Shown here: positions 1,568 through 20,223 of the stretch, one piece after another
How the letters are laid out: each line of letters opens with the position of its first letter
Numbering within the stretch: the stretch's first letter is position 1
Source: a virus
Virus record (IMG/VR): IMGVR_UViG_3300010430_000459
Coordinates: 1-23,627 of that record
Direction: 5' to 3' (one strand)
DNA: 23,627 bases
Program-made: the position numbers and the translations under genes
The notes under the pieces: model-generated
The model's input: only the letters and a program-made list of their open reading frames with translations
What the model was told of the DNA's origin: nothing
Database searches by the model: none

Positions 1568-1912
1568 ATGGCTGTAAATATTAGTACGGTAGTTACATTA
1601 GTCGGTGTGGGCAAAACTATCAAAGAAGACGGGAGCTATTTGATACTTAACGGGCAGGCGGCAAAAACAGGAAAAATAAATGTCCGTTGTTCTGGTGAGT
1701 TTGGGGGCGCAACTGTTAGTGTGGGCTATCTTGCAAGTGATGAATTTACGGTTCAAGACTTGCCAGACGGAACACCTGCTGACCTAACAGCGCCGTTTGC
1801 TTTGCGTTTTGATTGCGGCACATTTACAAATACAGGGTCTGGTCCTGCTATAAAAGTGGCAGGCATAAGCGGCACAACAAGCGCGGCGCTAACCATCTCA
1901 AGCATCGACTAA
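1568..1912 (+). CDS. Hypothetical beta-rich 114-residue protein
   Basis: A 114-residue protein with short alternating hydrophobic strands separated by Gly/Asp/Thr turns, which suggests a small Ig-like or beta-barrel fold. No family is recognised. The ATG follows a GGGTTAGG purine-rich stretch (1558-1565) and has its own candidate promoter. It ends with a Ser/Ile-rich strand-like tail. Its size and composition resemble small head decoration proteins, but the coat gene is 6.7 kb away and nothing in the sequence proves a structural role. Confidence 0.65.
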   Translation: MAVNISTVVTLVGVGKTIKEDGSYLILNGQAAKTGKINVRCSGEFGGATVSVGYLASDEFTVQDLPDGTPADLTAPFALRFDCGTFTNTGSGPAIKVAGISGTTSAALTISSID

Positions 1913-1914
1913 AC

Positions 1915-1927
1915 GTTATAGTATAAC
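1915..1927. promoter_or_regulatory. Perfect palindrome before the small terminase gene
   Basis: GTTATAGTATAAC is a perfect inverted repeat of GTTATA around one central base, in the 60-base gap before the 1973 gene. The right arm also reads as a TATAAC -10-like hexamer. It could be a protein binding site or part of a promoter; no matching -35 is visible. Confidence 0.3.
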
Positions 1928-1972
1928 ATTGCCACGCGGGCATTAAACGAGAGCAACAAAGGGGTAAGGGTT

Positions 1973-2278
1973 ATGGCGGCAACAGTAGCAGCTAAGAATA
2001 GAAAGGTACGGCAGGAGGCGTTACGCGACTTCCTAGCAAATCAGAAGCTTGTTGAGAAAGTTATTGATAATGCTAGAAAAATGGAGGAGCAGGGTGCGTC
2101 TATGGAGGCACAGGAGCTTAACGGGCTAAAGTATGCAACAGACACAAGATTGAAGCTTGTTTCAAAGTACCTGCCAGACTTAAAAGCAATGGAGCTTACC
2201 GGCGATGGTGGTGGTGAAATTGGTATAGATCAGTTACTAACAGTGGAGTTTGTCGGTATTGAAAATAAAACTGCCTGA
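1973..2278 (+). CDS. Terminase small subunit (putative)
   Basis: A 101-residue, largely helical charged protein directly upstream of and overlapping the large terminase, the normal place for the DNA-recognition subunit of the packaging motor. Its C-terminal part contains a KYLPDLKAMELTGDGGGE segment (residues 63-80). That resembles the ending of many phage small terminase proteins, where a helix is followed by a short Gly/Asp-rich linker. P22 gp3 is longer (about 160 residues), so this is a compact type. The ATG is preceded by GGGGTAAGGG (1961-1970), a strong ribosome site. The 3' end overlaps the large subunit by 29 bases. Assignment rests on context plus that C-terminal motif. Confidence 0.72.
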   Translation: MAATVAAKNRKVRQEALRDFLANQKLVEKVIDNARKMEEQGASMEAQELNGLKYATDTRLKLVSKYLPDLKAMELTGDGGGEIGIDQLLTVEFVGIENKTA

Positions 2279-3644
2279 TAGGTTTCAGCCGCTATTTAAG
2301 CCAAAGCGCATTAAAGTGTTTTTTGGTGGTAGAGGTGGAGCTAAAACTGAGAGTTTTATACGAGCCGCTTTAGTCCTAGCAATACGGGACGGAAAGCGGT
2401 TTCTCTGTTTACGCGAATTTATGAACTCTATCGATGACTCGGTGCATGCTGCTATCAAGGGGATTATTGCCAGCGATGGCTTTCAAGGATTCACAGAGCT
2501 AGAGAAGCGGATTGATGGCCCTAATGGTTCAGGCTTCAAGTATGGGCAGCTGGCTAGAAACTTATCGAGCATTAAATCAAAGTTTGATTTTGATGTTGCC
2601 TGGGTTGAGGAGGCTGAGACAATAACAGCTGAGTCTATTGAGACGTTAGAGCCGACAATAAGAAAAGATGGGTCGGAGTTGTGGTATAGCTTTAATCCAG
2701 CCAGAGAAGATGGCGCGGTCTATACAAAGTATGTTTTGCCATACATTGATGAGATTAATCGCACCGGCTTTTATGAGGATGGCGATGTATATGTTTGCAA
2801 GATAGGTATTGAGCATAACCCTTGGGCGCCTGAAAGCCTGTTAAGGGCTGCTGAGAAGATGAAAGCCGAGAACTATGATCTATGGTGCCATGTGTGGGAC
2901 GGACAGCCTAGGCGCGACCTAGATGACGTTATCATTCAACCCAAATGGATTGATGCGGCCATTGATGCTCACAAAACATTAGGATGGCAAGGTGTTGGTG
3001 TGAAGTCGCTAGGCTTTGACCCTGCTGATGCTGGTAGTGATGCAAAAGCTATCGCTATTCGGCATGGTTCGCTGATAACAGAGGCTAAGAGCTGGACAAC
3101 AGGTGATATAACCAGCGCAATACCTAGAGCTTTTGACGCTGCTGAACAGGTTAGAGCGACACATATTGTGTTTGATGCTGATGGCTTAGGTGCTGCGGTA
3201 AAGGTCGGCCTAGATCAACGTGTTGGTAGTGACATGGATATAACGGCTTATCATGGCGGCGCATCTGTTGACTACCCAGCAGAGTTATACGAAGGCAACC
3301 GAAGCAACAAAGATACATTTAAGAATAAACGCGCCCAGTATTATTGGTTCTTAGCTGACAGGTTCCGAAAGACTTATGATGCGGTTGTTAATGGCGTCTA
3401 TTGTGACCCTGACCAGCTTATTAGTATTAGCTCAGACATAGGTGAAGTCAGGCAAATTAAAGCCGAGCTATCCAGAGTGTTAAGAAAGCGCACTAATAAC
3501 AGTCAAATACAGCTAGAATCTAAGCCCGACATGGCTAAACGTGGTGTAAAATCACCTAACTTAGCAGATGCTATTGTTATGTGTTTTGCTAATCCGCCAC
3601 CCAAAACAGTACACAAAAAACAAGAGTTTGCAGCGTTATGGTAG
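2250..3644 (+). CDS. Terminase large subunit (ATPase and nuclease)
   Basis: A 464-residue packaging motor subunit that pumps DNA into the procapsid through the portal and cuts the concatemer. The N-terminal ATPase has a Walker A motif GGRGGAKT (residues 26-33), a Walker B strand DVAWVEE (115-121) and a YSFNP coupling motif (146-150). The C-terminal RNase H-like nuclease shows the expected acidic residues: D257 in FDPAD, D309 in IVFDADG and D440 in NLADA. The architecture fits the Terminase_3 / PBSX-like group. The start is a TTG at 2250 with a GTGGAG purine run just upstream; a second in-frame TTG lies at 2259. The gene overlaps the small subunit by 29 bases and the portal by 7, so translation is probably coupled. 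Confidence 0.95.
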   Translation: MSVLKIKLPDRFQPLFKPKRIKVFFGGRGGAKTESFIRAALVLAIRDGKRFLCLREFMNSIDDSVHAAIKGIIASDGFQGFTELEKRIDGPNGSGFKYGQLARNLSSIKSKFDFDVAWVEEAETITAESIETLEPTIRKDGSELWYSFNPAREDGAVYTKYVLPYIDEINRTGFYEDGDVYVCKIGIEHNPWAPESLLRAAEKMKAENYDLWCHVWDGQPRRDLDDVIIQPKWIDAAIDAHKTLGWQGVGVKSLGFDPADAGSDAKAIAIRHGSLITEAKSWTTGDITSAIPRAFDAAEQVRATHIVFDADGLGAAVKVGLDQRVGSDMDITAYHGGASVDYPAELYEGNRSNKDTFKNKRAQYYWFLADRFRKTYDAVVNGVYCDPDQLISISSDIGEVRQIKAELSRVLRKRTNNSQIQLESKPDMAKRGVKSPNLADAIVMCFANPPPKTVHKKQEFAALW

Positions 3645-5797
3645 ATAACACAGATTACAGCGAAGTCAGTAAACGCCTGTCAATGGCACAAGATGCCGAT
3701 TCTGATATGCGCGACCAGGTATGTGAGACTGACAAGTTTCTCAATGTCAGGGATGGGCAATGGGACACAGGAAACCTGCCTAACATCAATCTACCAAGGT
3801 TAACGCTAGATAAATGCAATCCTATTGTTGATTCTATCGCCTCGCAGATTGAAGAAAATGAATATGCTATACACGTTAAACCTGCTGACGGTGCAAGCAA
3901 CAAGGATGTGGCCAATATTTACAATGGTTTAATACGCAATATCGAGAATGTTAGCAACGCGGTACAAATCTATAACGCGGTATCACGCCGAACTATTGGC
4001 ACAGGCTTGTCAGGCTGTCGGGTTGTTCAGGATTACGTCAGTTCGGACTCATTTGACCAAGATTTGATTGTTAAACCTATCAATGACTTTGCAAATCGTG
4101 TGTGGTTTGGCCCTTATGAGCAGGCAGATGCCAGTGATGCGCCTTACGCTTGGGTGTTTACCGCAATGTCGCCAGATGCCTATGATGAGAAGTACCCAGA
4201 TGGCTCAGGCTTGTCATTGTCTCAAGACATTTGGAATGAGAATTGGTGGAATGCGCGTGAAGTTGTAATTATTGCCGAGTACATTTACAAGGTTTACGAG
4301 TCTGTCGAGCTTGTATTGATGACCGATGGCAAGGTTTACGAGGTAACAGAGGAGTTTGAATCTGTTACTGATGAGCTTGCACAACAGAACATTCAGGAGC
4401 GCAGCCGCAAAAGCAAGAAGGTTTGCCGCATCAAAACTAGAATGATGGACGGCAAGGGCTGGATAACTGGCGAGCAAGACACAGTATTCAAGGATATGCC
4501 GGTAATTCAATCGGCTGCTAACTTCCAAATCATTCAGAATAAGCCTGTTTATTGGGGAGCTATTGATAAGCTGCTAGACCAACAGCGCGTTTACAACTTT
4601 ACATCGTCAAAACAGTTGGCAGAAACAGCGTTAGCACCAACTGAAACAATTATGATGACTGACGATCAGGCGCTTGGTCAGGATTACTCACAACTTAACC
4701 AAAATCCTAAGCCAATAACCACTTATACGCACATGGATGGGCAGCAAACGCCTTATAAGATGGCTGGGCCATCAATTAACCAATCATTAGAGGTTATGAA
4801 GCAATCGGCGGCTAATGACATTGGTGCTAGTGCTGGTCAGTTTAACGCTCAAATGGGCAATAACGCGGGTTTACAGTCTGGTCGCGCCATTGGGATGCAA
4901 ATAGATAAAGGCGATGCAAGCAATCTGAAGTATGTACAGCAGCGAGAGGCTTTCATCTGCTCGGTTGCCAAGGTTATCGTCAACGCAATACCGGCGACCT
5001 ATGATTCAGAGCGTCAAATTCGCATAGTTGGCGAGGATGGCACAGAGGATATGGAGACTATCAACACAGCTGAGTATGACATTCAGACAGGCCAAATGGT
5101 TGAGCTTAATGATTTGTCGCAGGGTCAATACGATGTGACTTGTACAGCTCAAAAGTCATTTAAGAATAAGCAAGACCAAACAGCTTCCGCGTTTATGGAA
5201 TTGGCTCAGGTAATGCCTGGCATTATGGACGTGGGCGCAGATGTTTATATGAATAGCGTTGACGCTCCAGCTATGAAGATGATCGCTGAGCGTTACCGTG
5301 AACAAATGCTACCAACTGGTGTTATACCCCAATCGCAAATGAGTGATGAAGAGATACAGCAGATGCAAGCAGCCGCACAACAGCCTAAAGAACCGACCAT
5401 ACAAGAACAGCTAGGCCAAGCAGAACTTATGAAGGGTCAGGCTGAAATTGGTAAGGCGCAAGCACAGGCCGATAAGATTCAAGTTGAGGCGGCAAGTTTG
5501 CAGGCTAAAACTCAGCTAGAAGCACAGAAGCTAAACCAGTCAGGCCAGAAAATTGAGCTACAGGCAGATGAGCAAGCATTTAGACAGCAGCTTGATATAA
5601 ACCGACAGCTTACCGAGCGCATGAATATGATGGCCGATACCATGAATAAGTTGGTGGAGGCTACAGGCGCGGAGGGTATGGCGATGCCTTCGGCTATGCA
5701 AGCAGTCAATAATCAGGCTCAAATGATTACAGGCGAGCAGAATGATATGGGCGCTATGACTAATGAGCAGTTGATGGAGGTTGTGCGCAATGGATAA
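3638..5797 (+). CDS. P22-type portal protein
   Basis: A 719-residue homologue of P22 gp1 (725 residues), which forms the dodecameric ring at one capsid vertex through which DNA is packaged and ejected. The N-terminal part (SKRLSMAQDADSDMR, then a QWDTGNLPNINLPRLTLDKC-like region near residues 38-60) is characteristic of the P22 portal family. The central wing/stem region is followed by a C-terminal Gln/Ala-rich helical stretch, about residues 580-680. This corresponds to the long alpha-helical barrel that extends into the capsid in P22. The ATG lies 7 bases inside the terminase gene end. The gene ends 8 bases inside the next gene, which uses a GGAGG at 5776-5780 within the portal coding sequence. 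Confidence 0.93.
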   Translation: MVDNTDYSEVSKRLSMAQDADSDMRDQVCETDKFLNVRDGQWDTGNLPNINLPRLTLDKCNPIVDSIASQIEENEYAIHVKPADGASNKDVANIYNGLIRNIENVSNAVQIYNAVSRRTIGTGLSGCRVVQDYVSSDSFDQDLIVKPINDFANRVWFGPYEQADASDAPYAWVFTAMSPDAYDEKYPDGSGLSLSQDIWNENWWNAREVVIIAEYIYKVYESVELVLMTDGKVYEVTEEFESVTDELAQQNIQERSRKSKKVCRIKTRMMDGKGWITGEQDTVFKDMPVIQSAANFQIIQNKPVYWGAIDKLLDQQRVYNFTSSKQLAETALAPTETIMMTDDQALGQDYSQLNQNPKPITTYTHMDGQQTPYKMAGPSINQSLEVMKQSAANDIGASAGQFNAQMGNNAGLQSGRAIGMQIDKGDASNLKYVQQREAFICSVAKVIVNAIPATYDSERQIRIVGEDGTEDMETINTAEYDIQTGQMVELNDLSQGQYDVTCTAQKSFKNKQDQTASAFMELAQVMPGIMDVGADVYMNSVDAPAMKMIAERYREQMLPTGVIPQSQMSDEEIQQMQAAAQQPKEPTIQEQLGQAELMKGQAEIGKAQAQADKIQVEAASLQAKTQLEAQKLNQSGQKIELQADEQAFRQQLDINRQLTERMNMMADTMNKLVEATGAEGMAMPSAMQAVNNQAQMITGEQNDMGAMTNEQLMEVVRNG

Positions 5798-7346
5798 AGC
5801 GCAAGCGGCCAACGAATTAAAGCGGCGCGGTGTAACCTTAGAGGATATGCAAAACTATTTTCTAGCGGTTGCCGAGCCTGTTGCAGCTATGGGTTCGGGC
5901 ATTGTTGCCGAGCCTTTAGCTGGATTTGCTGGTTTAGCTGCGACTCCTTTCGGTTCAGATGCGGCGGCTAACGCTGTTAATTATTACCGCGATAAGCTGA
6001 CCTACTCACCAAGGTCAGAGGCGGGTCAGTCTGGCATGGCTGCTGTTGGTGAGGCGATGGCCCCAATAGGTGAGGCAATGGATTATGCGGCTAGTGGTGC
6101 TGGTGATTACATCTACGACAAAACAGGAAGCCCGGCATTAGCGGCGGCAGCGTACTCAGCACCAACAGCAGCACTTGAGCTATTAGGTTTAAAAGGCGTT
6201 AATCAGTTAAGCAAATCAGGCAAGCTAGGCCAGCCGTTAGAGTTTGGCGACATAGGCAGCGGTGGAGTGGGCAACAAGCAACGCGGCATCTTTGCAGGCG
6301 TAAAGGCTAAGGGTGCAGATTTAAAGCGTCAGGCAGCAGCAGAGGAGCTTGCGGGTCGCGGTATTGGACGCGACCAAATATGGCAGGAAACAGGCTGGTT
6401 TAATGACGTTGATGGCAGTTGGAAGTTTGAGATTGATGATAGCCAGGCAAGACTTAGGTCGCTAGATGGCAGTTCTGATAGTCATATGGACTGGGTAGAT
6501 GAGGCAGAAAGCAGAGAGCGCGGCATTCCTTTATCGTCAGGTGTTGAGCACAGTGAGATGTTCAACAGCTACCCATCAATGCAGAAAGCTCGCCTAAGTA
6601 TTGGTCGAACTGGCGGCAGTCATGGTATGTATGACGCTCAAGCTGACACGGTTGGCATTAAGGATCCGTTTGATTACCCCCAAGGCGAGGCCAGATCAAC
6701 ACTACTTCACGAAACGCAACACGCTATACAAGAGCGGGAGGGGTTTGCCAAAGGTGGTAGCGCGAGTGAGTTTGAAGTTGATATGCAGGCTTATGCCGAA
6801 CTTAACAAGATGGGCTTTGCTGAAATGGATGGATTCCAAAAGCAAATGTTTAAAGACTTGAGAGGTAAGTACGGCAAAAATAGGTCGGCCTTTGATTTTT
6901 ATGAGCGCCTAGCAGGTGAAGCCGAAGCCCGCAATGTACAAACCCGCATGGACTACACACCAGAACAGCGCCGAGCAGCAGCACCTTGGACAACGCTAGA
7001 TGTGCCAGAGGGTGAGCTTATTGTAAGAGGTAACAGCAAGGGGCCGATGATGAGTTCGGGTAATGATATTAAAAGCGCCATAAGGGAGAGTGAGGGGGCT
7101 ATAACATTGGATAAAGTTATTGTTCCTGAGTCTGTCAGAGATAAAGGGCTGGGCACTAAGTTTATGAAGGACTTGATAGGTCGAGCCGACCAAAGCGGCA
7201 AGAGGATTGAGCTAACACCAAGCGCTGATTTTGGCGGCAATAAAAACAGGCTGGTTAAGTTTTATAAGAGGCTTGGTTTTGTAGAGAATAAAGGGAAAAA
7301 CAGGGATTACGAGATAAGCGAATCTATGTACAGGCTGCCTGAATAA
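5790..7346 (+). CDS. Polyvalent virion-associated protein: LPD23-like, HExxH metallopeptidase-like and GNAT domains
   Basis: A 518-residue multidomain protein inserted between portal and scaffold, where P22 has nothing. Residues 25-143 are Gly/Ala-rich with an MGSGIVAEPLAG start and a PTAALELLGLKG end, and this stretch is clearly similar to residues 68-187 of the ejection protein at 16755. Residues 188-217 (GRGIGRDQIWQETGWF, then DGSWKFEIDD) match the LPD23 domain of phage polyvalent proteins. Residues 303-323 contain HETQH (307-311), an HExxH zincin motif, with a possible third ligand in AGEAEAR (375-381). Residues 436-518 form a GNAT-like domain with R450-DKGLG and FYKRLGFV. I chose ATG 5790 because GGAGG at 5776-5780 gives 9-base spacing; an upstream TTG at 5781 has no room for a ribosome site. 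Injection into the host is inferred. Confidence 0.85.
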   Translation: MDKAQAANELKRRGVTLEDMQNYFLAVAEPVAAMGSGIVAEPLAGFAGLAATPFGSDAAANAVNYYRDKLTYSPRSEAGQSGMAAVGEAMAPIGEAMDYAASGAGDYIYDKTGSPALAAAAYSAPTAALELLGLKGVNQLSKSGKLGQPLEFGDIGSGGVGNKQRGIFAGVKAKGADLKRQAAAEELAGRGIGRDQIWQETGWFNDVDGSWKFEIDDSQARLRSLDGSSDSHMDWVDEAESRERGIPLSSGVEHSEMFNSYPSMQKARLSIGRTGGSHGMYDAQADTVGIKDPFDYPQGEARSTLLHETQHAIQEREGFAKGGSASEFEVDMQAYAELNKMGFAEMDGFQKQMFKDLRGKYGKNRSAFDFYERLAGEAEARNVQTRMDYTPEQRRAAAPWTTLDVPEGELIVRGNSKGPMMSSGNDIKSAIRESEGAITLDKVIVPESVRDKGLGTKFMKDLIGRADQSGKRIELTPSADFGGNKNRLVKFYKRLGFVENKGKNRDYEISESMYRLPE

Positions 7347-7474: not shown

Positions 7475-8296
7475 ATGAGTGAAGAGCTGGAAGTGGGCGA
7501 AAGCCTTGAAGTCGTTAACGATGTGGAAGTGCTGGATGCCAAGCCAGAAAGCGGTGAGGTTGGTGATTCTACAGAGGTAATGACTGGTGACTCAGCAGCA
7601 CCTATTGAGGCGGAACAAGAAGAAAAGCCGCAGGTTAGTGACGGAGTTCAAAAAGTTATCAACGCCAAGCATCGAAAGATGAAAGAGGCAGAGGAAAAGG
7701 CAGAGGCGCTGCAAAAGCGAATTGATGAGATTGAAGCATCGAAAGCGCAGGCGCAGACTGAAATAGCCGATGTTCCAACCTTGCCCGATGCGTTTGATGA
7801 TAACTATGAGGCTCAACTTGCTAATCGAGAGTCTGTAATACGACAGAACGCAAAGGCCGAGGCGCTTCGAGAGATACGCCAAAACCAAGAGCAGAGTCGT
7901 TTGCAGTCGGAGCAGCAGGCACAACAGGAAGCGTTTAACGCGAAACTTACTACCTTTGCAGAGAATGGTGAAAAGGTCGGCTTGTCTATTGAAGCAATGA
8001 CAGGCAACCGCGAAACCATCCAAAACTTAGGCGTAAATGACGCAATAGTTCTTAATCTGTTTAGTCTCAGCGATGGGCCGCAGGTTATGGATTATCTGGC
8101 TAAAAATCCTGATACAGCTTTAGATTTTGCGGGTAAATCGCAGCTAGAGGCTGGAATTATGATTTCAGACATACGCTCCAAAGTTACGCCATCCGCTCCA
8201 AAGCTTACTAAAGCGCCACCACCGCCACATACGGCGACCGGCGCGGCTGCACAACCAGCAGAAAGCCCACTATTGAAGGGCGCAACCTTCGACTAA
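7475..8296 (+). CDS. Scaffolding protein (P22 gp8-like)
   Basis: A 273-residue, highly charged, helix-rich protein directly before the coat gene. In P22-like phages this is the place of the scaffold (gp8, 303 residues), which directs coat assembly and then leaves the procapsid. Residues 1-55 are very acidic. Residues 60-165 have long Glu/Lys/Gln/Ala-rich coiled-coil character. Residues about 245-273 form a Pro/Ala-rich tail ending KGATFD. The ATG is preceded by AAGGCGGG (7460-7467). Sequence alone shows no enzymatic motif, as expected for a scaffold. The call rests on gene order, composition and length. Confidence 0.85.
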   Translation: MSEELEVGESLEVVNDVEVLDAKPESGEVGDSTEVMTGDSAAPIEAEQEEKPQVSDGVQKVINAKHRKMKEAEEKAEALQKRIDEIEASKAQAQTEIADVPTLPDAFDDNYEAQLANRESVIRQNAKAEALREIRQNQEQSRLQSEQQAQQEAFNAKLTTFAENGEKVGLSIEAMTGNRETIQNLGVNDAIVLNLFSLSDGPQVMDYLAKNPDTALDFAGKSQLEAGIMISDIRSKVTPSAPKLTKAPPPPHTATGAAAQPAESPLLKGATFD

Positions 8297-9908: not shown

Positions 9909-10966
9909 TTAAGCGAGCCTTATCATTAATACTTGTACAAGGCTCTGAGGCTCCAATAGAGCAAGATGAGGCTGGTAGCGCGGTAATTGCACTCAATAGA
10001 ATGATGGCAAGCTGGGAAGGCTCAGGGTTAGCTTTAGGCTACACTGCTGTTTCTAGCCTTGGTGACTTAATTACTGTGCCTGAATATGCGCTTGATGGTA
10101 TAGAGCAAAACTTGGCGCTGCGATTAGCCCCAGAATTTGAAGGTATGGTAAGCCCGTTATTGGTTCAAAACGCACGATTTGCAAAGCAAGACTTGGTTAA
10201 AGCAAACTTGACGGTCGCATCAACTAGCTATCCAGACATCATGCCAATGGGTTCAGGTAATACCGGCACAGGTCGCAATACATACGACGGCCCATTTTAC
10301 CCTTCTGGCGGCGGCATCCCAGGCGACAAGCCCGTTCCTCCCGTCCCTCCCGTTCCTCCCGTTCCTCCCGTCCCTCCCGTTCCTCCTGTTCCTCCTGTCA
10401 TATACGGCAAACTATCGCAAGCCAACACAAACACTGAAATATCCGTAAATTCAGAGGGGAAGCTGCTCACCCACATTGGCCCAATCTTTTGGCGGTCGGG
10501 GCTGTTGGGTGAGGGTATTCCCGACAATGATGCTCGCGGGTTCTATTGTGAATTTACCCCGGAGTCGGGTGCTGACGCCTTTGCTGTTGGGGTGTCAAAC
10601 TACCCTCAAGTATCAAAAGATACTTACTTAGGCGAAACTGTTAATGGTTTCGCATACCATTCATCAGCAGTAAAGTTTACAGGGGGGGTCTCTTCTCCTT
10701 ACGGGTCGGCCTACGATGTAGGTGATGTAATAGGTATCGCGTACAAGCAAGGCAAGGTCTGGTTCTCGCTTAATGGTGTATGGGCAACTGGTGCTGACCC
10801 TGCCACTGGTACTGGGGAGGCTTACGCAGGGATTACTGGAACAGTGTATGCCGGGGCATCCTTGCTATATCAAAATGGTACTTTGAGTGGCGAGTTTGGC
10901 CCAGACGATTTAGTTTATACGGCACCTGTAGGATTTGAGCAAGGATGGTTCATTGATTCGCCATAG
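9887..10966 (+). CDS. gp4-like head completion protein fused to a Pro-Pro-Val linker and a SPRY-like domain
   Basis: A 359-residue protein whose first 125 residues match the P22 gp4 family (tail accessory factor that seals the portal; P22 gp4 is 166 residues). Key stretches are EVIKRALSLILVQGSEAP (6-23) and LGYTAVSSLGDLITVP (50-65). After a Gly-rich segment come seven to eight Pro-Val-Pro units (149-171). The C-terminal domain (about 172-359) looks SPRY-like: a YDVGDVIGIAYKQGKVWFS core (276-294) is followed by LNGVW and a GITGTVYAGASL strand (315-326). In the family, SPRY modules are beta-sandwich interaction domains. I infer a gp4 body with a flexible arm carrying an exposed binding domain. 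The ATG overlaps the previous gene by 22 bases. Confidence 0.87.
   Translation: MSTTAEVIKRALSLILVQGSEAPIEQDEAGSAVIALNRMMASWEGSGLALGYTAVSSLGDLITVPEYALDGIEQNLALRLAPEFEGMVSPLLVQNARFAKQDLVKANLTVASTSYPDIMPMGSGNTGTGRNTYDGPFYPSGGGIPGDKPVPPVPPVPPVPPVPPVPPVPPVIYGKLSQANTNTEISVNSEGKLLTHIGPIFWRSGLLGEGIPDNDARGFYCEFTPESGADAFAVGVSNYPQVSKDTYLGETVNGFAYHSSAVKFTGGVSSPYGSAYDVGDVIGIAYKQGKVWFSLNGVWATGADPATGTGEAYAGITGTVYAGASLLYQNGTLSGEFGPDDLVYTAPVGFEQGWFIDSP
10331..10399 (+). repeat. 9-bp tandem repeat encoding (Pro-Val-Pro)n
   Basis: About 7.7 copies of CCCGTTCCT, with third-position C/T variants, lie in frame inside the gp4-like gene. All changes are synonymous, so the protein repeat is perfect while the DNA has drifted slightly. 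Copy number could change by slippage without breaking the frame. Confidence 0.95.
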
Positions 10967-12578: not shown

Positions 12579-12837
12579 TTTTATACTTGCATCCCCTGAT
12601 TTTAGATACCCAATAGTTGATGAGTCAGGCAAGGCAACGGAAGATTTACAGCGGTTTTTTGCTGCGGCTGTTGAGTTGATTAACGCCATAAACCCCACTA
12701 TTGGAGCGGGTAGCCCAGAAGGTGTATTATCAGCAGGGCCACAAGCAATCTACGTGGACAGTTCCGCGCCAGTTGGTGAGGGGATTTACATCAAACAGTC
12801 GGGGACAGGTAACACAGGATGGGTGAAGCGATCATAA
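12571..12837 (+). CDS. Small tail-associated protein with SPEGV...GNTGW motif
   Basis: An 88-residue protein that starts with TTG at 12571, with GGAG at 12556-12559 upstream, and overlaps gp10 by 8 bases. Residues 9-40 are helical. Residues 48-85 have the pattern GSPEGV...IYV...GIYIKQSGTGNTGW, which recurs in phage fibre- and tail-linked proteins as a short beta module. It occupies the position of the P22 needle gp26 (233 residues) but is much shorter and lacks the trimeric coiled-coil. It could be a reduced plug or an adaptor, but its function is unproven. Its 3' end overlaps the oxygenase gene by 19 bases. Confidence 0.75.
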   Translation: MANFILASPDFRYPIVDESGKATEDLQRFFAAAVELINAINPTIGAGSPEGVLSAGPQAIYVDSSAPVGEGIYIKQSGTGNTGWVKRS

Positions 12838-13394
12838 TTGACGACTTTATAGGCGGGTTTGAGGCTTATAGAGACACACTTGATAGTCATATCTTTAGCG
12901 GTGTACAGTCGCCTGTTGATGGCGTTTTTTATAAGGGTGTATCTGCTGATATACCGCAACACATAGCCGACAACATTAAAGCCAATCTTGATCTCTATTA
13001 TGAGAATGTGGAGATTAAGCATCAATTTTTACGCATCAGCCAAGAAGGTATATTTGCACCATTGCAGGCACATAACGATGCCGATATGGGTACGCATAGC
13101 TGCATGTTGTACCTTAATCGCAGAGAAGATTGCACCGGCGGCACAAGTTTTATCAGTCACGTTGATGAGGGTATGCCATACGGCCCTGAAAACGACGAAC
13201 AATATAAGGTTTGGCAGGATGATTTTAATACTGAGTCTCGCTGGAATATTGACGAAATTGCCACAATGAAACCCAACAGGGCGGTCATGTTTGATGCCGA
13301 CAGGATGCACAGGTCTGAGCCGGTTGGTGGTTTTGGACGCACAACAAAGGACGCCAGACTTGTTTTGGTGACGTTTTTCGATGCTGATTCGTAA
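12819..13394 (+). CDS. 2-oxoglutarate/Fe(II)-dependent oxygenase-like protein
   Basis: A 191-residue protein with the double-stranded beta-helix signature of Fe(II)/2-oxoglutarate oxygenases. H85-N-D87 in PLQAHNDADMG is the HxD metal pair, H164 in FDADRMHRSEP is the distal histidine, and R174 or R180 (in ARLVLVTFF) can bind 2-oxoglutarate. GGTSFI (107-112) fits the strand after the first pair, as in prolyl-hydroxylase-like members. Such enzymes hydroxylate proteins, nucleic acids or small molecules; the substrate here is unknown. The ATG sits about 9 bases after AGG at 12807. The gene overlaps its neighbours by 19 and 14 bases, so it is expressed with tail genes and a GNAT enzyme. Confidence 0.87.
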   Translation: MGEAIIIDDFIGGFEAYRDTLDSHIFSGVQSPVDGVFYKGVSADIPQHIADNIKANLDLYYENVEIKHQFLRISQEGIFAPLQAHNDADMGTHSCMLYLNRREDCTGGTSFISHVDEGMPYGPENDEQYKVWQDDFNTESRWNIDEIATMKPNRAVMFDADRMHRSEPVGGFGRTTKDARLVLVTFFDADS

Positions 13395-13830
13395 AGGGAT
13401 AAGCGCTGATATTCCCCGGTGTGTTGAGATGGCTGCGGATTTCCACAAAATAGCCTACGGATTAATGGGTATAGAGTTTTGCCCAGACTCAACGGCAAGG
13501 GCTTTTGAAATGTGCCTAGGCCATGAGTTGCTTAGTATTGCGGAGCATGATGGCGTAGTTATTGGTATGGTGGCAGGCGTTAAAGCTCCGATGATTATGA
13601 ATAATGATATTTTGGTTGGCGCAGAGTTGGCCTGGTGGGTAGAGCCTGATTACCGCAAAACTTCGGCAGGTTTAAAACTATTAAGATTTGCCGAAAAACT
13701 GGCAAAAGATGCAGGCGTTAAAATGTGGTCGATGATGTTGCTAGAGTCTAGCGAGCCTGAAAAGGTGGCTAAGATTTATGCTAAAATGGGCTATGAACCA
13801 GCAGAACGAACTTTTTTAAAGGTGTTTTAA
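13381..13830 (+). CDS. GNAT-family N-acetyltransferase
   Basis: A 149-residue single-domain GNAT protein, a typical length for the family, which transfers an acetyl group from acetyl-CoA to an amine. It begins with the usual IRKGISADIPRCVEM pattern (residues 3-17). Motif A is the AELAWWVEPDYRKTSAGLKLL stretch (81-101). There the acetyl-CoA pyrophosphate loop reads R92-KTSAG, with Ser where the middle Gly is commonest, as in several phage members. Motif B is IYAKMGYEP (132-140). Its start overlaps the oxygenase by 14 bases and it precedes the ejection protein block by 2 bases. Substrate unknown: virion proteins or a host target are both possible. Confidence 0.87.
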   Translation: MLIRKGISADIPRCVEMAADFHKIAYGLMGIEFCPDSTARAFEMCLGHELLSIAEHDGVVIGMVAGVKAPMIMNNDILVGAELAWWVEPDYRKTSAGLKLLRFAEKLAKDAGVKMWSMMLLESSEPEKVAKIYAKMGYEPAERTFLKVF

Positions 13831-15550: not shown

Positions 15551-16755
15551 TGGCTATATCACAAGCGGTTGCAAACGCAATACTAGGGCAAAGAGCGCCG
15601 GATATTCTAGGTTCCTTTGAGCAAGGTCAGGCGGTAGCAAGGGGGCGCGAAGAACGCAGTCGGGCTAGGCAGATACAAGAGCTTTCAGGGCAATCGTATA
15701 AAGGTGATGCTGAGGCTTTTGGTGAGCTGCAAGGAATAGCCCCAGAGGTGGCGCTAGAGTTACAGAATAAATTGAACATTAAGGATAAGGGTGGTCTGGA
15801 TAGGCTTTATACGGACGCAAAAACAGCGTTATCAATCTATGAAAACTATGGTGTTGAGGGCGTTATTAGCTTTGGCGAGAACAGAATACAGGGTTTAAAG
15901 TCGATGTTTGCTGATACTCAAGATACAGAGCGGGTATTAAACTTCTTTAAAACCGGTAACATTGAAGAAGGCGTGGCAAACCTAAAGGCCACTATTAGCG
16001 CATTTGACCAAGCTAAGAGCATGGGGCCAACTGGTGCAATGCGAGAAAGGAACTCGCTACTAAATGATTTGAATAGTGATGACCCTAATGTTCGCAGATC
16101 GGCAGAAGTTGCACTTAAATTAACAGCGGCCCCTGTTGGCTCTGCGGATATAACTACAGCAACAACGGAGGGTTTATCTGAACAGGTCGGTGACTCGCAG
16201 GCAACTATTAAAGAGAGGGCAAAATTTGGGGAACTAACAGGGACGAGTCGAGCCAATACTATTGATAAAGGTTATGAGTCGATACAGCTTATAGACAAAG
16301 GGCTTAGCAATATTGATAGAGCTATTCAGGCTGTAAGGGATGGGGCCAGCACTGGAAAGATAGCTTCCAAATTCCCTAGTATAGCAAGGGCTGCTGTTGA
16401 GCTTGAGCAAATAGCCGACTCTATGGCTCTTGATGTTATCGGTAGTGTGACCTTGGGCGCAATTTCTGAGGCAGAGCTAGACCTAGCCAGACAAGTGGCT
16501 TTACCAGTGGGCTTGAAAGGTGAGGATTTAATACAACATTTAATGGCAAGGAAATCCGCCCAAATTAAACTCAGAGGATACCTTGAGGAGCAAGTTGACT
16601 TCCTAGATCAAGGCGGTACGATTCCGCAATTCCTTAGAAGGAAGAAGGCGCAGCGAGAACAAGCAGCCACACAACAGGGAGACCCACAAACCCCACCTAC
16701 ACAGCAATCACAGCCTCAGCGAATGAGATTTGACGCAAAAGGGAATATTTTATAA
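15550..16755 (+). CDS. Ejection / DNA transfer protein (P22 gp20 position)
   Basis: A 401-residue helical protein at the position of P22 gp20 (471 residues). Its N-terminus (ISQAVANAILGQRAPDILGSF, residues 3-23, then many Arg/Glu/Gln) is a recurring opening in phage internal proteins that sit around the ejected DNA. The long middle (30-330) is amphipathic helix. The C-terminus (360-401) is Gln/Pro/Arg-rich and probably disordered. GGAG at 15539-15542 and a TAATG overlap set the start. It ends with another TAATG overlap to the large ejection protein, so these three genes should be made in fixed proportion. Confidence 0.75.
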   Translation: MAISQAVANAILGQRAPDILGSFEQGQAVARGREERSRARQIQELSGQSYKGDAEAFGELQGIAPEVALELQNKLNIKDKGGLDRLYTDAKTALSIYENYGVEGVISFGENRIQGLKSMFADTQDTERVLNFFKTGNIEEGVANLKATISAFDQAKSMGPTGAMRERNSLLNDLNSDDPNVRRSAEVALKLTAAPVGSADITTATTEGLSEQVGDSQATIKERAKFGELTGTSRANTIDKGYESIQLIDKGLSNIDRAIQAVRDGASTGKIASKFPSIARAAVELEQIADSMALDVIGSVTLGAISEAELDLARQVALPVGLKGEDLIQHLMARKSAQIKLRGYLEEQVDFLDQGGTIPQFLRRKKAQREQAATQQGDPQTPPTQQSQPQRMRFDAKGNIL

Positions 16756-18917
16756 TGCCGATAGAAGCAGAATTACCAGACGGTCGAGTCCTAGAGTTTC
16801 CAGACGGAACAGATCAAAGCGTTATTCAATCAACCGTTAAGCGGGTACTGGGGGCAAGTGATGACAGTGGAATGGGTACAAGTGGCAATGCTGGCGATAA
16901 TAATATGGCTCCTATGGTAGCGGAGCCGTCATTTGGTCGGGAAATGCTGTCAGGTTTAGAGCTTGCTGGAACAATGGGAAGTGCTGCGATTATGGAGCCT
17001 GTCGCTGGTATTGCTGGTGCGTTTACTGGGGCATTTAAGGGGCCAGAGAAAGGCGCGGAAATGGTCAGGGATGTGCAAAGCATGGCTTATGAGCCAAGAA
17101 TGCCTGAGACTAAACGAGCACTTGAGGGAATAAGCAAAACCCCAGTGGTGCAGGGTTTGGCGTCTGGTATGCAATACTTAGAAGAGAAAGGCGGTCAGGC
17201 GGGTGAGGCTGTTGGCGGGTTATTTGGCACTCCAGGCTTAGGCTATGCCATAGGCGCAGCCGGCCCAACGGCAATACTTGAGGCGCTAGGGCTTAAAGGT
17301 GCTTCTAGCCTTAGAGGGTCAAAGAAGATAACAGGCATCAGTGACGAAGCTATTGCCCGAATGGAGAAACAAGGCGTAGAAATAGATGACCTATCAGATA
17401 AGGGTATAGAGAAGCTACAAGCAATGGAGTTTGAGCGAGCAGCCGAAGAGATGCAAAGGTTGCGGCTTTTTGAGCGTGAAAATATACCAACAATGCAAAG
17501 CCGTATCTCACAGAAAAATACAGATTTTTTATCTGAAAGGGCGGGATTTAGGGCTGACACACCAGAGGGCCAACAAATAAGAGATTTAGCTGTTGATGAG
17601 TCGGCAGGATTTCAGACTGCTATCAATAATTATAAAAACGCTTTTGGTGACTCTGACAATGTTGGTGATGCTGTTAAGAGCGCATTGACAGCAAGGCAAA
17701 CAGGGTTAAGGTCTGATGTTAAAAGCGCATATGATGGATTGAATGAGGTAACAAGCGGTGCAAGTATTCCTCTTGTTGGTAGCAAGGTTTACGAGGCTTT
17801 GAGTGAAGAAAGAGTGCAAGGCATGGCTGGTCGGTTAAATGACGTTGAACGCGGCCAAATTAATGATGTGCTTGTTGAATTTGGTATTGATACAGACCCG
17901 GCGAGAGTTGAAAAATGGATAGAAAGCAGAAAGGGCAAAAGCGGCGCAATTTCTTCAAAATCCGAAATAACACCACTATCTATTAATAACTCAGAGGATA
18001 TGTCACAGGCTTTATCTGCGATGATGGGTTTTGATGCCTCCCCAGCATTGAAGGGTGTTTCTGGCAGAATTAAGAAATCCATTGACGAGGAGTTAATTCA
18101 GTTTGACGAGCTTAATGGTGACGGTTTGGCGGCTGACGTTTCTATTGCTTCAAAGAGGGCTAGAGCTGCCTATAAAAAGTTGAAAGATTTTGAGAATACC
18201 GATGCTTTAATAGGTAAATTAATCGGCTCTAAAAAGCGATCAGATGAGCCTTTAATATACGCCTCGGAAGTGGCAAAGAGGATAACGGGCGGCGGTCGTG
18301 ATGGCACGATAGAAAATATAGACAGGCTAACCAAAAGCCTTGTTAAAAGTGATTCTGGTGTTGAGGCTTTGGGTAATATGCAATCTGCTATCGCAGCCCA
18401 ATTATTAGATAAATCAGTAAGTAGGACACCACTAGCCAACGGCACAAGGCAATGGCTGGCTGGTAACTATGTAGATAACTTCGATGCTCTTGAAAAGTCA
18501 GGAAAGTTATCAGCCATATTTAGAAATAATCAGGAGGGCTTAGCAGGTTTGCGGAGATTGCGGGAAGCCAGCGAGCTAACAAAAGCGCCAAGTAATGTAG
18601 CCAAAAGCTCAGGCACAGGCGATGACAACCTTAATAATATAATGAAAGTGTTAAAGGGTACTAAGGGTTTGATACCGGCAGCGTTTCAGGCGGGTGGCGC
18701 TGCGGTTACTGGTATTCCTATGGCTGGTGAGGCAATATCAGGAATGATTCCCAAGTCTAAGCAGAAGGCGGCTAAGAAATCAGCAAAAAGAGCTTTAAAC
18801 GCAAGGCCCGATGAAGCCCAGCAAATACGACAACTAACGAGACTTTACCCAAATCTGACGGCAGTAATAGCTCCTTCACTTATAAATAAAACGCAACAAA
18901 AAGAAGATAAGGAATAG
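16755..18917 (+). CDS. Large ejection / internal virion protein (P22 gp16 position)
   Basis: A 720-residue protein at the place of P22 gp16 (609 residues), the ejected protein needed early in DNA entry. It opens with PIEAELPDGRVLEFPDGT (residues 2-19), a short beta-like module seen at the start of many phage internal virion proteins. Residues 68-187 form a Gly/Ala-rich, partly hydrophobic module, from MGSAAIMEPVAG to PTAILEALGLKG, shared with the polyvalent protein at 5790. The remainder is long charged helix, ending in a strongly basic stretch KSKQKAAKKSAKRA (about 667-680). No peptidoglycan-hydrolase motif is evident. The start is a TAATG overlap with the upstream gene; AAGGGAA at 16738-16744 is the likely ribosome site. 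Confidence 0.8.
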   Translation: MPIEAELPDGRVLEFPDGTDQSVIQSTVKRVLGASDDSGMGTSGNAGDNNMAPMVAEPSFGREMLSGLELAGTMGSAAIMEPVAGIAGAFTGAFKGPEKGAEMVRDVQSMAYEPRMPETKRALEGISKTPVVQGLASGMQYLEEKGGQAGEAVGGLFGTPGLGYAIGAAGPTAILEALGLKGASSLRGSKKITGISDEAIARMEKQGVEIDDLSDKGIEKLQAMEFERAAEEMQRLRLFERENIPTMQSRISQKNTDFLSERAGFRADTPEGQQIRDLAVDESAGFQTAINNYKNAFGDSDNVGDAVKSALTARQTGLRSDVKSAYDGLNEVTSGASIPLVGSKVYEALSEERVQGMAGRLNDVERGQINDVLVEFGIDTDPARVEKWIESRKGKSGAISSKSEITPLSINNSEDMSQALSAMMGFDASPALKGVSGRIKKSIDEELIQFDELNGDGLAADVSIASKRARAAYKKLKDFENTDALIGKLIGSKKRSDEPLIYASEVAKRITGGGRDGTIENIDRLTKSLVKSDSGVEALGNMQSAIAAQLLDKSVSRTPLANGTRQWLAGNYVDNFDALEKSGKLSAIFRNNQEGLAGLRRLREASELTKAPSNVAKSSGTGDDNLNNIMKVLKGTKGLIPAAFQAGGAAVTGIPMAGEAISGMIPKSKQKAAKKSAKRALNARPDEAQQIRQLTRLYPNLTAVIAPSLINKTQQKEDKE

Positions 18918-18921
18918 TAGA

Positions 18922-20223
18922 ATGTCCAGATTTATAAACCCAGTGCCACAATACCTTAACAGCGCAGGCGACCCAATAGTTTCGGGTCAAATGTTTTTCT
19001 ATGAAGTTGGCTCAACTACGCCGAAAGATGTATATCTTGATGCTGCTTTGACTATCCCAGCCGCAAACCCTGTATTACTCAACGCTGATGGCCGTATGCC
19101 GGACACTTATCTGCTTGGCTCATATCGCACCATACTAAGCGAGCCGTCCAGTGGTGAACAATGGGAGCGGGATAATGTGGGTTCAGAGTTTACAGATGGT
19201 TATGGCTCAGAATGGAATAGTACAGTCACATATAATATACCTGATGTAGTTTTGTTTGATGGTGTTTATTATGTATGCCAAACAAACAACAATGTTAATA
19301 ATCAGCCAAGCTCTACGTCTAGTGAGTGGAGCGTTTCAAATCTTGGCGCTATTGGCTCGAACCTGATAGATAACGCACAATTTAAGGTTAGGCAGCGCGG
19401 CAATAATGACGGAGGGGCCGGACTTGGCGGTGTATTTATCGACAGATGGATTACACGACCACTAAGTCAAACAGGCGGCGCAACACAGATAAGTGTTCCT
19501 ACTATTGGAAATTTTCCTGTTGATTATATGCGTGTTGCGGTGTCAGGCCACACGTCATTTTGGTATATAAGGCAGAATTTTTTAACGGATAAAATACAGA
19601 CAGGAAAAGATTACACTTACGCCGTAAAAACTAATTTAATGTCCTCAGCAATAAAAATGAGGGCTAGATTAAGGGGTCGCAGTATAAGCGCAGGAGTATT
19701 TTATACACTGGGCGAGTCTGATATTCAGCTTGATTCTTATGGGCAGTACACCGTTACATTTAAAAATGTAGTATCGCCCGCACCACTCACAGCAGAAGAT
19801 GATTATATACAGATAGAACTTTCAGGACAGCAAGCAGACGGAGGCGCTGATTTTGTTCTGCCTGATGGCTCTTACAGGTTTGAGAGTTTTAAACTAGAAG
19901 AAGGCAATAGTTTTACTGGTAACACTCCATCAGCTTATTCTAGTGATGAGCTTGAATGCAGAAAATGGTATAGAGGCATAGATAGTGAATTTGTCGCGAC
20001 TGTTGCAAGTGCTTCAGCAACAACAGCAACAAGGAGAACAAATTTGTTTTTTGACCCCCCAATGTATTTCCCGCCCACAGTAACAATAGGCTCGATAACT
20101 AACGGGGCGCTTTCATCCATCAGCACAACAAGTAAGAATGGGTGCTATGTAACAATAACAGCCTCAAGCTCAAGTGATAACGTTTTTGTTGATGGCTATA
20201 CAGCAACTTGCGAGATTTTGTAA
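18922..20223 (+). CDS. Tail fibre / receptor-binding protein
   Basis: A 433-residue fibre. Residues 1-88 (SRFINPVPQYLNSAGDP, GQMFFYEVGSTTPKDVYLD, NPVLLNADGRMPD) are the conserved podovirus tailspike/fibre head-binding domain that docks to the tail hub. Residues 98-138 (W...Y...DVVLFDGVYYVCQ...W) resemble a small type 5/12 carbohydrate-binding module. Residues about 148-340, beginning NLIDNAQFKVRQRG, are a jelly-roll module found in phage fibres. The end contains ELECRKWYRG (343-352), a common motif before the fibre tip. No hydrolase site is visible, so it probably binds rather than cuts the receptor. AAGGA at 18909-18913 precedes the ATG. Confidence 0.88.
   Translation: MSRFINPVPQYLNSAGDPIVSGQMFFYEVGSTTPKDVYLDAALTIPAANPVLLNADGRMPDTYLLGSYRTILSEPSSGEQWERDNVGSEFTDGYGSEWNSTVTYNIPDVVLFDGVYYVCQTNNNVNNQPSSTSSEWSVSNLGAIGSNLIDNAQFKVRQRGNNDGGAGLGGVFIDRWITRPLSQTGGATQISVPTIGNFPVDYMRVAVSGHTSFWYIRQNFLTDKIQTGKDYTYAVKTNLMSSAIKMRARLRGRSISAGVFYTLGESDIQLDSYGQYTVTFKNVVSPAPLTAEDDYIQIELSGQQADGGADFVLPDGSYRFESFKLEEGNSFTGNTPSAYSSDELECRKWYRGIDSEFVATVASASATTATRRTNLFFDPPMYFPPTVTIGSITNGALSSISTTSKNGCYVTITASSSSDNVFVDGYTATCEIL

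Follow-up and report, generated by a model that had tools for sequence, protein, structure and literature searches.

The viral DNA analysed here as a whole (23,627 nt, IMG/VR record IMGVR_UViG_3300010430_000459, hereafter the window) displays a P22-like structural gene order, namely terminase, portal, P0001, scaffold, coat, tail accessory factor, head closure, ejection genes and fibre. P0001, the subject of this report, is a 518-residue protein that begins with a leader of the type found in P0002, the homologous leader-bearing last ejection protein of this phage, and continues with an LPD23 domain, a zincin-like domain and a GNAT acetyltransferase domain. An earlier note, made by a model from the sequence alone, had described this open reading frame (ORF) at 5790-7346 as an insertion where P22 has no gene. 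The ORF is real and lies at that place, and the remark on P22 is correct as well, the P22 portal (1702-3879) and scaffold (3893-4804) genes being separated by 13 nt. The start of P0001 overlaps the portal stop by 8 nt, an overlap also seen in the related loci L004 and L005. The main features are as follows.

3638..5797, + strand: portal gene, directly upstream of P0001
5790..7346, + strand: P0001, 518-amino-acid (aa) leader-LPD23-zincin-GNAT protein, with ATG at 5790 and stop at 7344-7346
5841..6221, + strand: ejection-type leader, residues ~18-144, predicted long helices (ejection-leader hidden Markov model, HMM; similarity to P0002; structure model)
6288..6455, + strand: LPD23 domain, residues 167-222, with the WKFEIDD motif (Pfam)
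6708..6722, + strand: HETQH zinc-binding motif, residues 307-311 (conservation and structure model)
6918..6920, + strand: E377 in LAGEAEAR, likely third zinc ligand (conservation)
6984..7055, + strand: disordered linker and junction, residues 399-422, ending in GPMMS, where the cargo changes between relatives (model confidence, junction comparison)
7032..7343, + strand: C-terminal GNAT cargo, residues 415-518, with the acetyl-CoA loop RDKGLG at 7137-7154 (Pfam, fold match)
7475..8296, + strand: scaffolding protein gene, downstream border of the portal-scaffold slot
16755..18917, + strand: P0002, the phage's own last ejection protein, with the homologous leader at 16932-17327

The leader and the domains behind it

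Searching the window with P0001 matched its residues 25-146 to P0002 (E = 7e-9), and BLASTP gave 31% over 130 columns (E = 8e-8). The P0002 gene lies upstream of the tail fibre, in the same order as in phages H6/1 and 1.275.O. Two further proteins resemble the leader region of P0001, namely the ejection protein of Pseudoalteromonas phage H6/1, a phage in which no other protein bears the leader, and the corresponding protein of Vibrio phage 1.275.O, encoded just before the tailspike. A degenerate pattern, G[SA]xxx[AS]EP[VLI][AS]G.[AS]G, was found in 15 viral contigs, including four P0001-type records (L006, L094, L098, L101). In the other 11 (8 distinct) it always falls in ejection-type ORFs of 344 (cut by the contig end) to 808 aa, and the order of ejection genes, leader ORF and fibre or spike was found wherever the neighbours could be named. 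An HMM was then built from 10 ejection leaders (8 distinct viral ones, H6/1 and 1.275.O), P0001-type and window proteins being excluded. Against 8,802 ORFs it retrieved P0001 at E = 1.7e-40 (137 bits) and P0002 at E = 4.9e-17, and the best of 20,000 shuffles of P0001 residues 1-165 reached 13.5 bits. When it was run over 186 loci with 16,156 ORFs at an E-value of 1e-3, every match was either an ejection-type ORF or a leader-cargo protein. Prophage leaders were sought in a genome contig collection by the pattern, where none of 8 matches reached E 1e-4 with the HMM (best E 2.6e-4), and by a related-locus search, which returned no relative.

The domain list of the earlier note stood, and what it had missed is that the N-terminal ~150 residues form an ejection-protein leader and that the cargo is exchanged between relatives. 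Virion carriage, which it had assumed from the protein family, gains independent support from this leader. As a side observation, the ejection-type ORFs of L095, L103, L104 and L088 fall into phrog_21712; PHROGs lists this group as "major head protein", which by position looks like a mislabel of an ejection protein family.

LPD23 is present (Pfam E = 3.9e-20, 71.8 bits for a curated cut-off of 27), but its previously proposed extent, 188-217, was slightly too narrow, as Pfam gives residues 167-222. Its residues W211, F213, E214, I215 and D217 are found in 68/68 rows of the alignment A6. The same is true of H307, E308 and H311 of the HETQH motif, as well as Y371 and E317, and a wider regular-expression count found HExxH in 73 of 74 full-length domains; the motif is in place and no chance match. 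The possible downstream glutamate ligand can be assigned to E377, also present in all 68 rows, partly by construction since the rows were picked with a regular expression requiring that residue. A weak match to the DUF6782 metallopeptidase family, below cut-off, covers HETQH. In the alignment underlying a first whole-protein model, residues 360-415 were misaligned, and that region and the low predicted template modelling score (pTM, 0.40) were left unused; a model of residues 164-416, with a predicted local distance difference test score (pLDDT) of 86.9 and a pTM of 0.85, replaces it for those residues. The nearest solved folds to this second model are IrrE/PprI, the VgrG2b effector domain, a DNA-protein-crosslink protease, selecase and the antirestriction protein ArdC, all of them zincins; because the scores are low (VIA Z at most 5.5, best Foldseek E 0.02), the fold class rests on the motif, the model and the consistency of the match list.

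Residues 399-421 have a pLDDT below 50 in the first whole-protein model. Many phage polyvalent proteins (e.g., L135, L145, L175, L178, L183) show a recurrent GPQMS-like junction motif where the zincin module ends; P[QMKR]MS occurs 12 times in 77 distinct zincin ORFs, against a shuffle mean of 1.4, and recurs at the zincin end. We do not claim it as a protease site, its recurrence at this position being all that was seen.

The C-terminal GNAT, as previously proposed, is supported by a Pfam match above cut-off (Acetyltransf_10, 24.6 bits for 23.6) and a GNAT fold over residues 415-518. Its best solved fold is the anti-CRISPR AcrVA5 (6iuf; residues 417-516, Z 11.9, root-mean-square deviation 2.3, 93/95 residues, 19% identity), followed by 2fl4 (Z 10.4); the top Foldseek E-values are only 0.002-0.006. 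A sequence-profile comparison with AcrVA5 gave E = 0.83 only, and the likeness is one of fold. The RxxGx[GA] loop is found in 58 of 65 distinct GNAT segments, and ENKG in all 65, although that stretch had served as the search query. Relatives of this GNAT are found in DarB-like and other giant phage proteins, in short ORFs and in 10 of 72,556 records of a plasmid collection; the family includes solo ORFs of 125-129 aa, stop to stop, without any leader. Of the two folds on which the earlier proposal depended, the models show the GNAT fold and, by weak matches, a zincin-like one, and HExxH and the acetyl-CoA loops are conserved among homologues.

Exchange of cargo in the portal-scaffold slot

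The leader of P0001, hereafter leader A, was found in 25 distinct ORFs, one of which (L002) is a cut copy of P0002; the remaining 24 are 14 ejection-type and 10 cargo proteins, the latter carrying the following cargoes.

Window: LPD23-zincin-GNAT
L004: LPD23-zincin and a ParB-like guess
L108: LPD23-zincin-ART
L109, L129, L152: LPD23-zincin and a C-terminus without Pfam match
L110, L158: LPD23-zincin only
L005: ART only
L006: two GNATs

Nine of the 10 cargo proteins directly follow the portal, the exception being L158. The ParB assignment in L004 relies on a DGHHR motif, which we take to be ParB-like; Pfam ParBc_2 matches at E = 0.11 only, and it remains a guess. In the contig of L005 and L086, the leader is present in both the slot protein and the ejection protein.

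A second leader (leader B), which starts with an FPDxM stretch, has no match to the leader-A HMM or to phage records. It fronts the same zincin in L068, L111, L114, L160, L140, L167 and L173, and the same GNAT in L013 and L015, the tail of L013 being without Pfam match; weak matches in L149, L151 and L176 were left out of the count. Seven of these nine proteins directly follow a portal-sized ORF (portal named by profile or phmmer), one ORF lies between in L140, and for L173 the visible sequence contains no ORF upstream. Across both leaders, the zincin occurs without further cargo in L110, L158, L068, L111 and L114/L160, and cargo occurs without zincin in L005, L006, L013 and L015. Since zincin-only and zincin-free leader proteins both exist, we argue that each enzyme may work alone.

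The leaders of the window, L004 and L005 share 92.7-94.5% protein identity, with a synonymous divergence (dS) of 0.41-0.47 and a ratio of nonsynonymous to synonymous divergence (dN/dS) of 0.06-0.08, whereas their C-terminal halves differ. The window portal is ~67% identical to those of L004 and L005, with a dS of 2.2 or saturated. High identity begins with the 22 final codons of the portal gene and holds until about 6420 against L004, or 6350 against L005, where it drops. Between the window and L004, dS amounts to 0.76 for LPD23 and 0.20 for the window GNAT and the orphan GNAT of L004. As these dS values differ among leader, portal, LPD23 and GNAT, the modules differ in age.

In L004, the new cargo lies between two copies of a 21-bp direct repeat (L004 7022-7042 and 7498-7518), the old GNAT follows it out of frame, and the TGA stop of the main ORF overlaps an ATG of the orphan frame, which is a displaced-cassette layout. 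Although its frame differs from that of the leader, the orphan GNAT (L004 7466-7810) is under constraint (dN/dS 0.2 relative to the GNAT of the window), and it is possibly translated by re-initiation at the ATGA.

In a tree of the 24 leaders (10 cargo, 14 ejection), many forks of which are weak, L099 contributes the ejection leader that groups with the cargo leaders of the window, L004 and L005 (support 97/94), whereas the leader of P0002 falls elsewhere; a recent duplication within the own phage was therefore rejected as sole origin of the leader. Leaders of the cargo and ejection types are intermixed on this tree, which requires a minimum of two label changes by its well-supported branches and three overall. 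The ejection protein gene itself contains a short block (16851-16940) that is 88% identical to L086 and strongly divergent on either side, as if this gene were also mosaic.

Possible delivery and function of P0001

We infer that P0001 is probably an effector of modular build that travels in the phage head and leaves it together with the genome, whose leader would direct its packaging and whose two enzymes would be directed at the host, likely to counter defence; in our reading it belongs with leader-tagged injected effectors. P0001 would be made late, by translational coupling to the portal. The leader would recruit it into the procapsid, which P22 ejection proteins enter by way of the scaffold, and would let it exit through the portal channel. 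In the cell, zincin and GNAT may each modify host proteins independently of the other, the most likely outcome being a defence blunted before phage genes are expressed. The portal-scaffold slot would serve as an exchange site, in which the leader stays and the cargo behind it is swapped. The virion-carried, two-enzyme effector of the earlier note fits this evidence and both of its domains are supported, the weak part being the fold matches of the zincin, with a best Z of 5.5. A more specific proposal, which we put forward tentatively and at somewhat less than even odds, is that an ejection leader was joined more than once to exchangeable enzymes, swapped with displaced orphans, and that in this phage its cargo is a protease together with an AcrVA5-like acetyltransferase, which would disarm host defence proteins before phage expression.

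That the leader would package and eject P0001 is proposed by analogy with the N-terminal parts of P22 proteins and with the T4 leader. In P22, according to the excerpts of two articles, the scaffold is needed for the incorporation of ejection proteins, and the N-terminal parts of gp7 and gp20 suffice (PMC8402733, PMC4992974). In favour of the reading as a whole count the homology of the leader, the conserved catalytic motifs, the exchange of cargo and the position in the slot. For virion presence, experimental support is confined to a distant giant LPD23-zincin relative, H66_0060 of phage H66, noted in its record as verified by mass spectrometry in the virion. Several observations weigh against the reading. 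P22 gp16 has the same gene position as the leader-bearing ejection proteins, but the leader HMM does not detect it (-1.0 bits) and the full-length ejection profile matches it weakly, in its N-terminal FPDGT stretch only; gp16 is thus unsupported as a sequence homologue of the leader, and the P22 results carry over by position and analogy only. Moreover, an N-terminal gp16 amber fragment (codon 172) gave no band in virions, as an excerpt of PMC8402733 reports. L158 carries leader and zincin outside the slot, and the HMMs find leader A or B in only 18 of 52 compact zincin ORFs, the other 34 being without either, so that a leader is not required for the zincin family in general. The low zincin fold scores given above count in the same direction.

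The alternative that survives best, although we consider it unlikely, is that the zincin is a self-processing protease, which would separate leader and C-terminal GNAT by a cut made either inside the capsid or once the protein has been ejected. The zincin is indeed placed between leader and cargo, with the disordered linker 399-421 before the latter, a conserved junction motif follows it in many relatives, and the same role was proposed for polyvalent-protein peptidases in the available text of Iyer et al. 2017 (PMC5512222). However, because the zincin is found behind a leader without cargo, and cargo without zincin, in the proteins of both leader families listed above, these architectures favour a role as effector over one in releasing the cargo by self-cleavage.

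We find it improbable that P0001 is instead a late cytoplasmic enzyme, never packaged, which has its helical or membrane-type leader in common with ejection proteins for some other reason. The Ala/Gly-rich composition of the leader, its helices in the structure model and the leaderless solo GNAT ORFs would agree with such an enzyme, but the restriction of the leader HMM to ejection-type and leader-cargo ORFs, and the strong constraint on the leader (dN/dS 0.06-0.08), speak against it. In other phages, the interval from portal to coat is a frequent place for a prohead protease gene, and a gene with an HExxH protease motif between portal and scaffold could be taken for one. That the zincin is a head-maturation protease is nonetheless very improbable, as the slot holds no protease gene in P22, H6/1 (only small reverse ORFs) or AH02, no protease is found in L005, L006, L013 and L015, and the same domain occurs in giant polyvalent proteins of unrelated phages.

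An effector injected from the head, as we propose for P0001, can be compared with several known systems. The T4 internal proteins Ip1-Ip3 are, according to the excerpt of PMC12373910, injected anti-defence inhibitors of GmrSD restriction encoded in a variable hotspot, non-homologous cargoes with only an N-terminal packaging leader in common. Ten residues of IpIII suffice as leader, as stated in part of PMC8402733. Leader A is similarly a common N-terminal leader on unrelated cargoes (zincin, GNAT, ART and others), whereas the T4 leader is short and its cargoes are small and described as specific inhibitors; here the leader has ~130 residues, is shared with P22-like ejection proteins and precedes enzymatic cargo. 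LPD23, zincin MPTase, GNAT and ART-PolyVal are known domains of polyvalent proteins, as described in excerpts of Iyer et al. 2017 (PMC5512222), and P0001 resembles these by the same kinds of domains in a phage structural operon, an LPD above cut-off and a linked zincin and GNAT beside virion genes. It differs by its compactness, its definable ejection leader and its C-terminal variability; the set of those authors is said in the same excerpts not to fit a theme of N-terminal delivery and C-terminal toxin. The minimal GNAT fold is shared with AcrVA5 (sequence profile E = 0.83 only), with 2fl4 close behind in the fold comparison.

Polymorphic toxins (CDI, Rhs) combine a constant N-terminal delivery part with a variable C-terminal effector and leave displaced orphan cassettes. 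P0001 and its relatives likewise have a constant front, a variable C-terminal effector and a displaced orphan (L004), whereas their delivery, if our reading is right, would be by the virion to the cell being infected.

In open-licence PubMed Central (PMC) literature, searched at the level of titles and abstract starts, no description was found of P22-like phages in which effector cargo bears the leader of an ejection protein. The domains are known, whereas nothing there matched the leader and its double use, in the ejection protein and in effectors, nor the slot or the layout of displacement. If the proposal is true, injected anti-defence effectors of P22-like phages could be searched for simply by leader and slot together, much as internal proteins were by the T4 leader, and the packaging and ejection signal of the ejection protein at the gp16 position would become testable. 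It would also suggest a natural protein-delivery tag and link polyvalent proteins to a cassette exchange in the style of polymorphic toxins.

Other genes of the window

Between the head closure and ejection genes lies a pair formed by a 2OG-Fe(II) oxygenase-like gene (12819-13394) and an overlapping second GNAT gene (13381-13830), the pair being kept in L085, L086 and L095. The second GNAT gene was considered as a P22 gp14 and rejected, having no BLAST similarity to it. The P22_Tail-4 accessory factor bears a C-terminal extension of ~226 aa (10286-10966), which weakly resembles proteins annotated as lectin/SPRY in phages of Pelagibacter and Methylophilales; its counterparts in L004 and L005 (145-aa ORFs) have no such extension. 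Finally, the tail-fibre ORF (18922-20223) presents a weak match, below cut-off, to a carbohydrate-binding module (CBM_5_12, E = 0.001).

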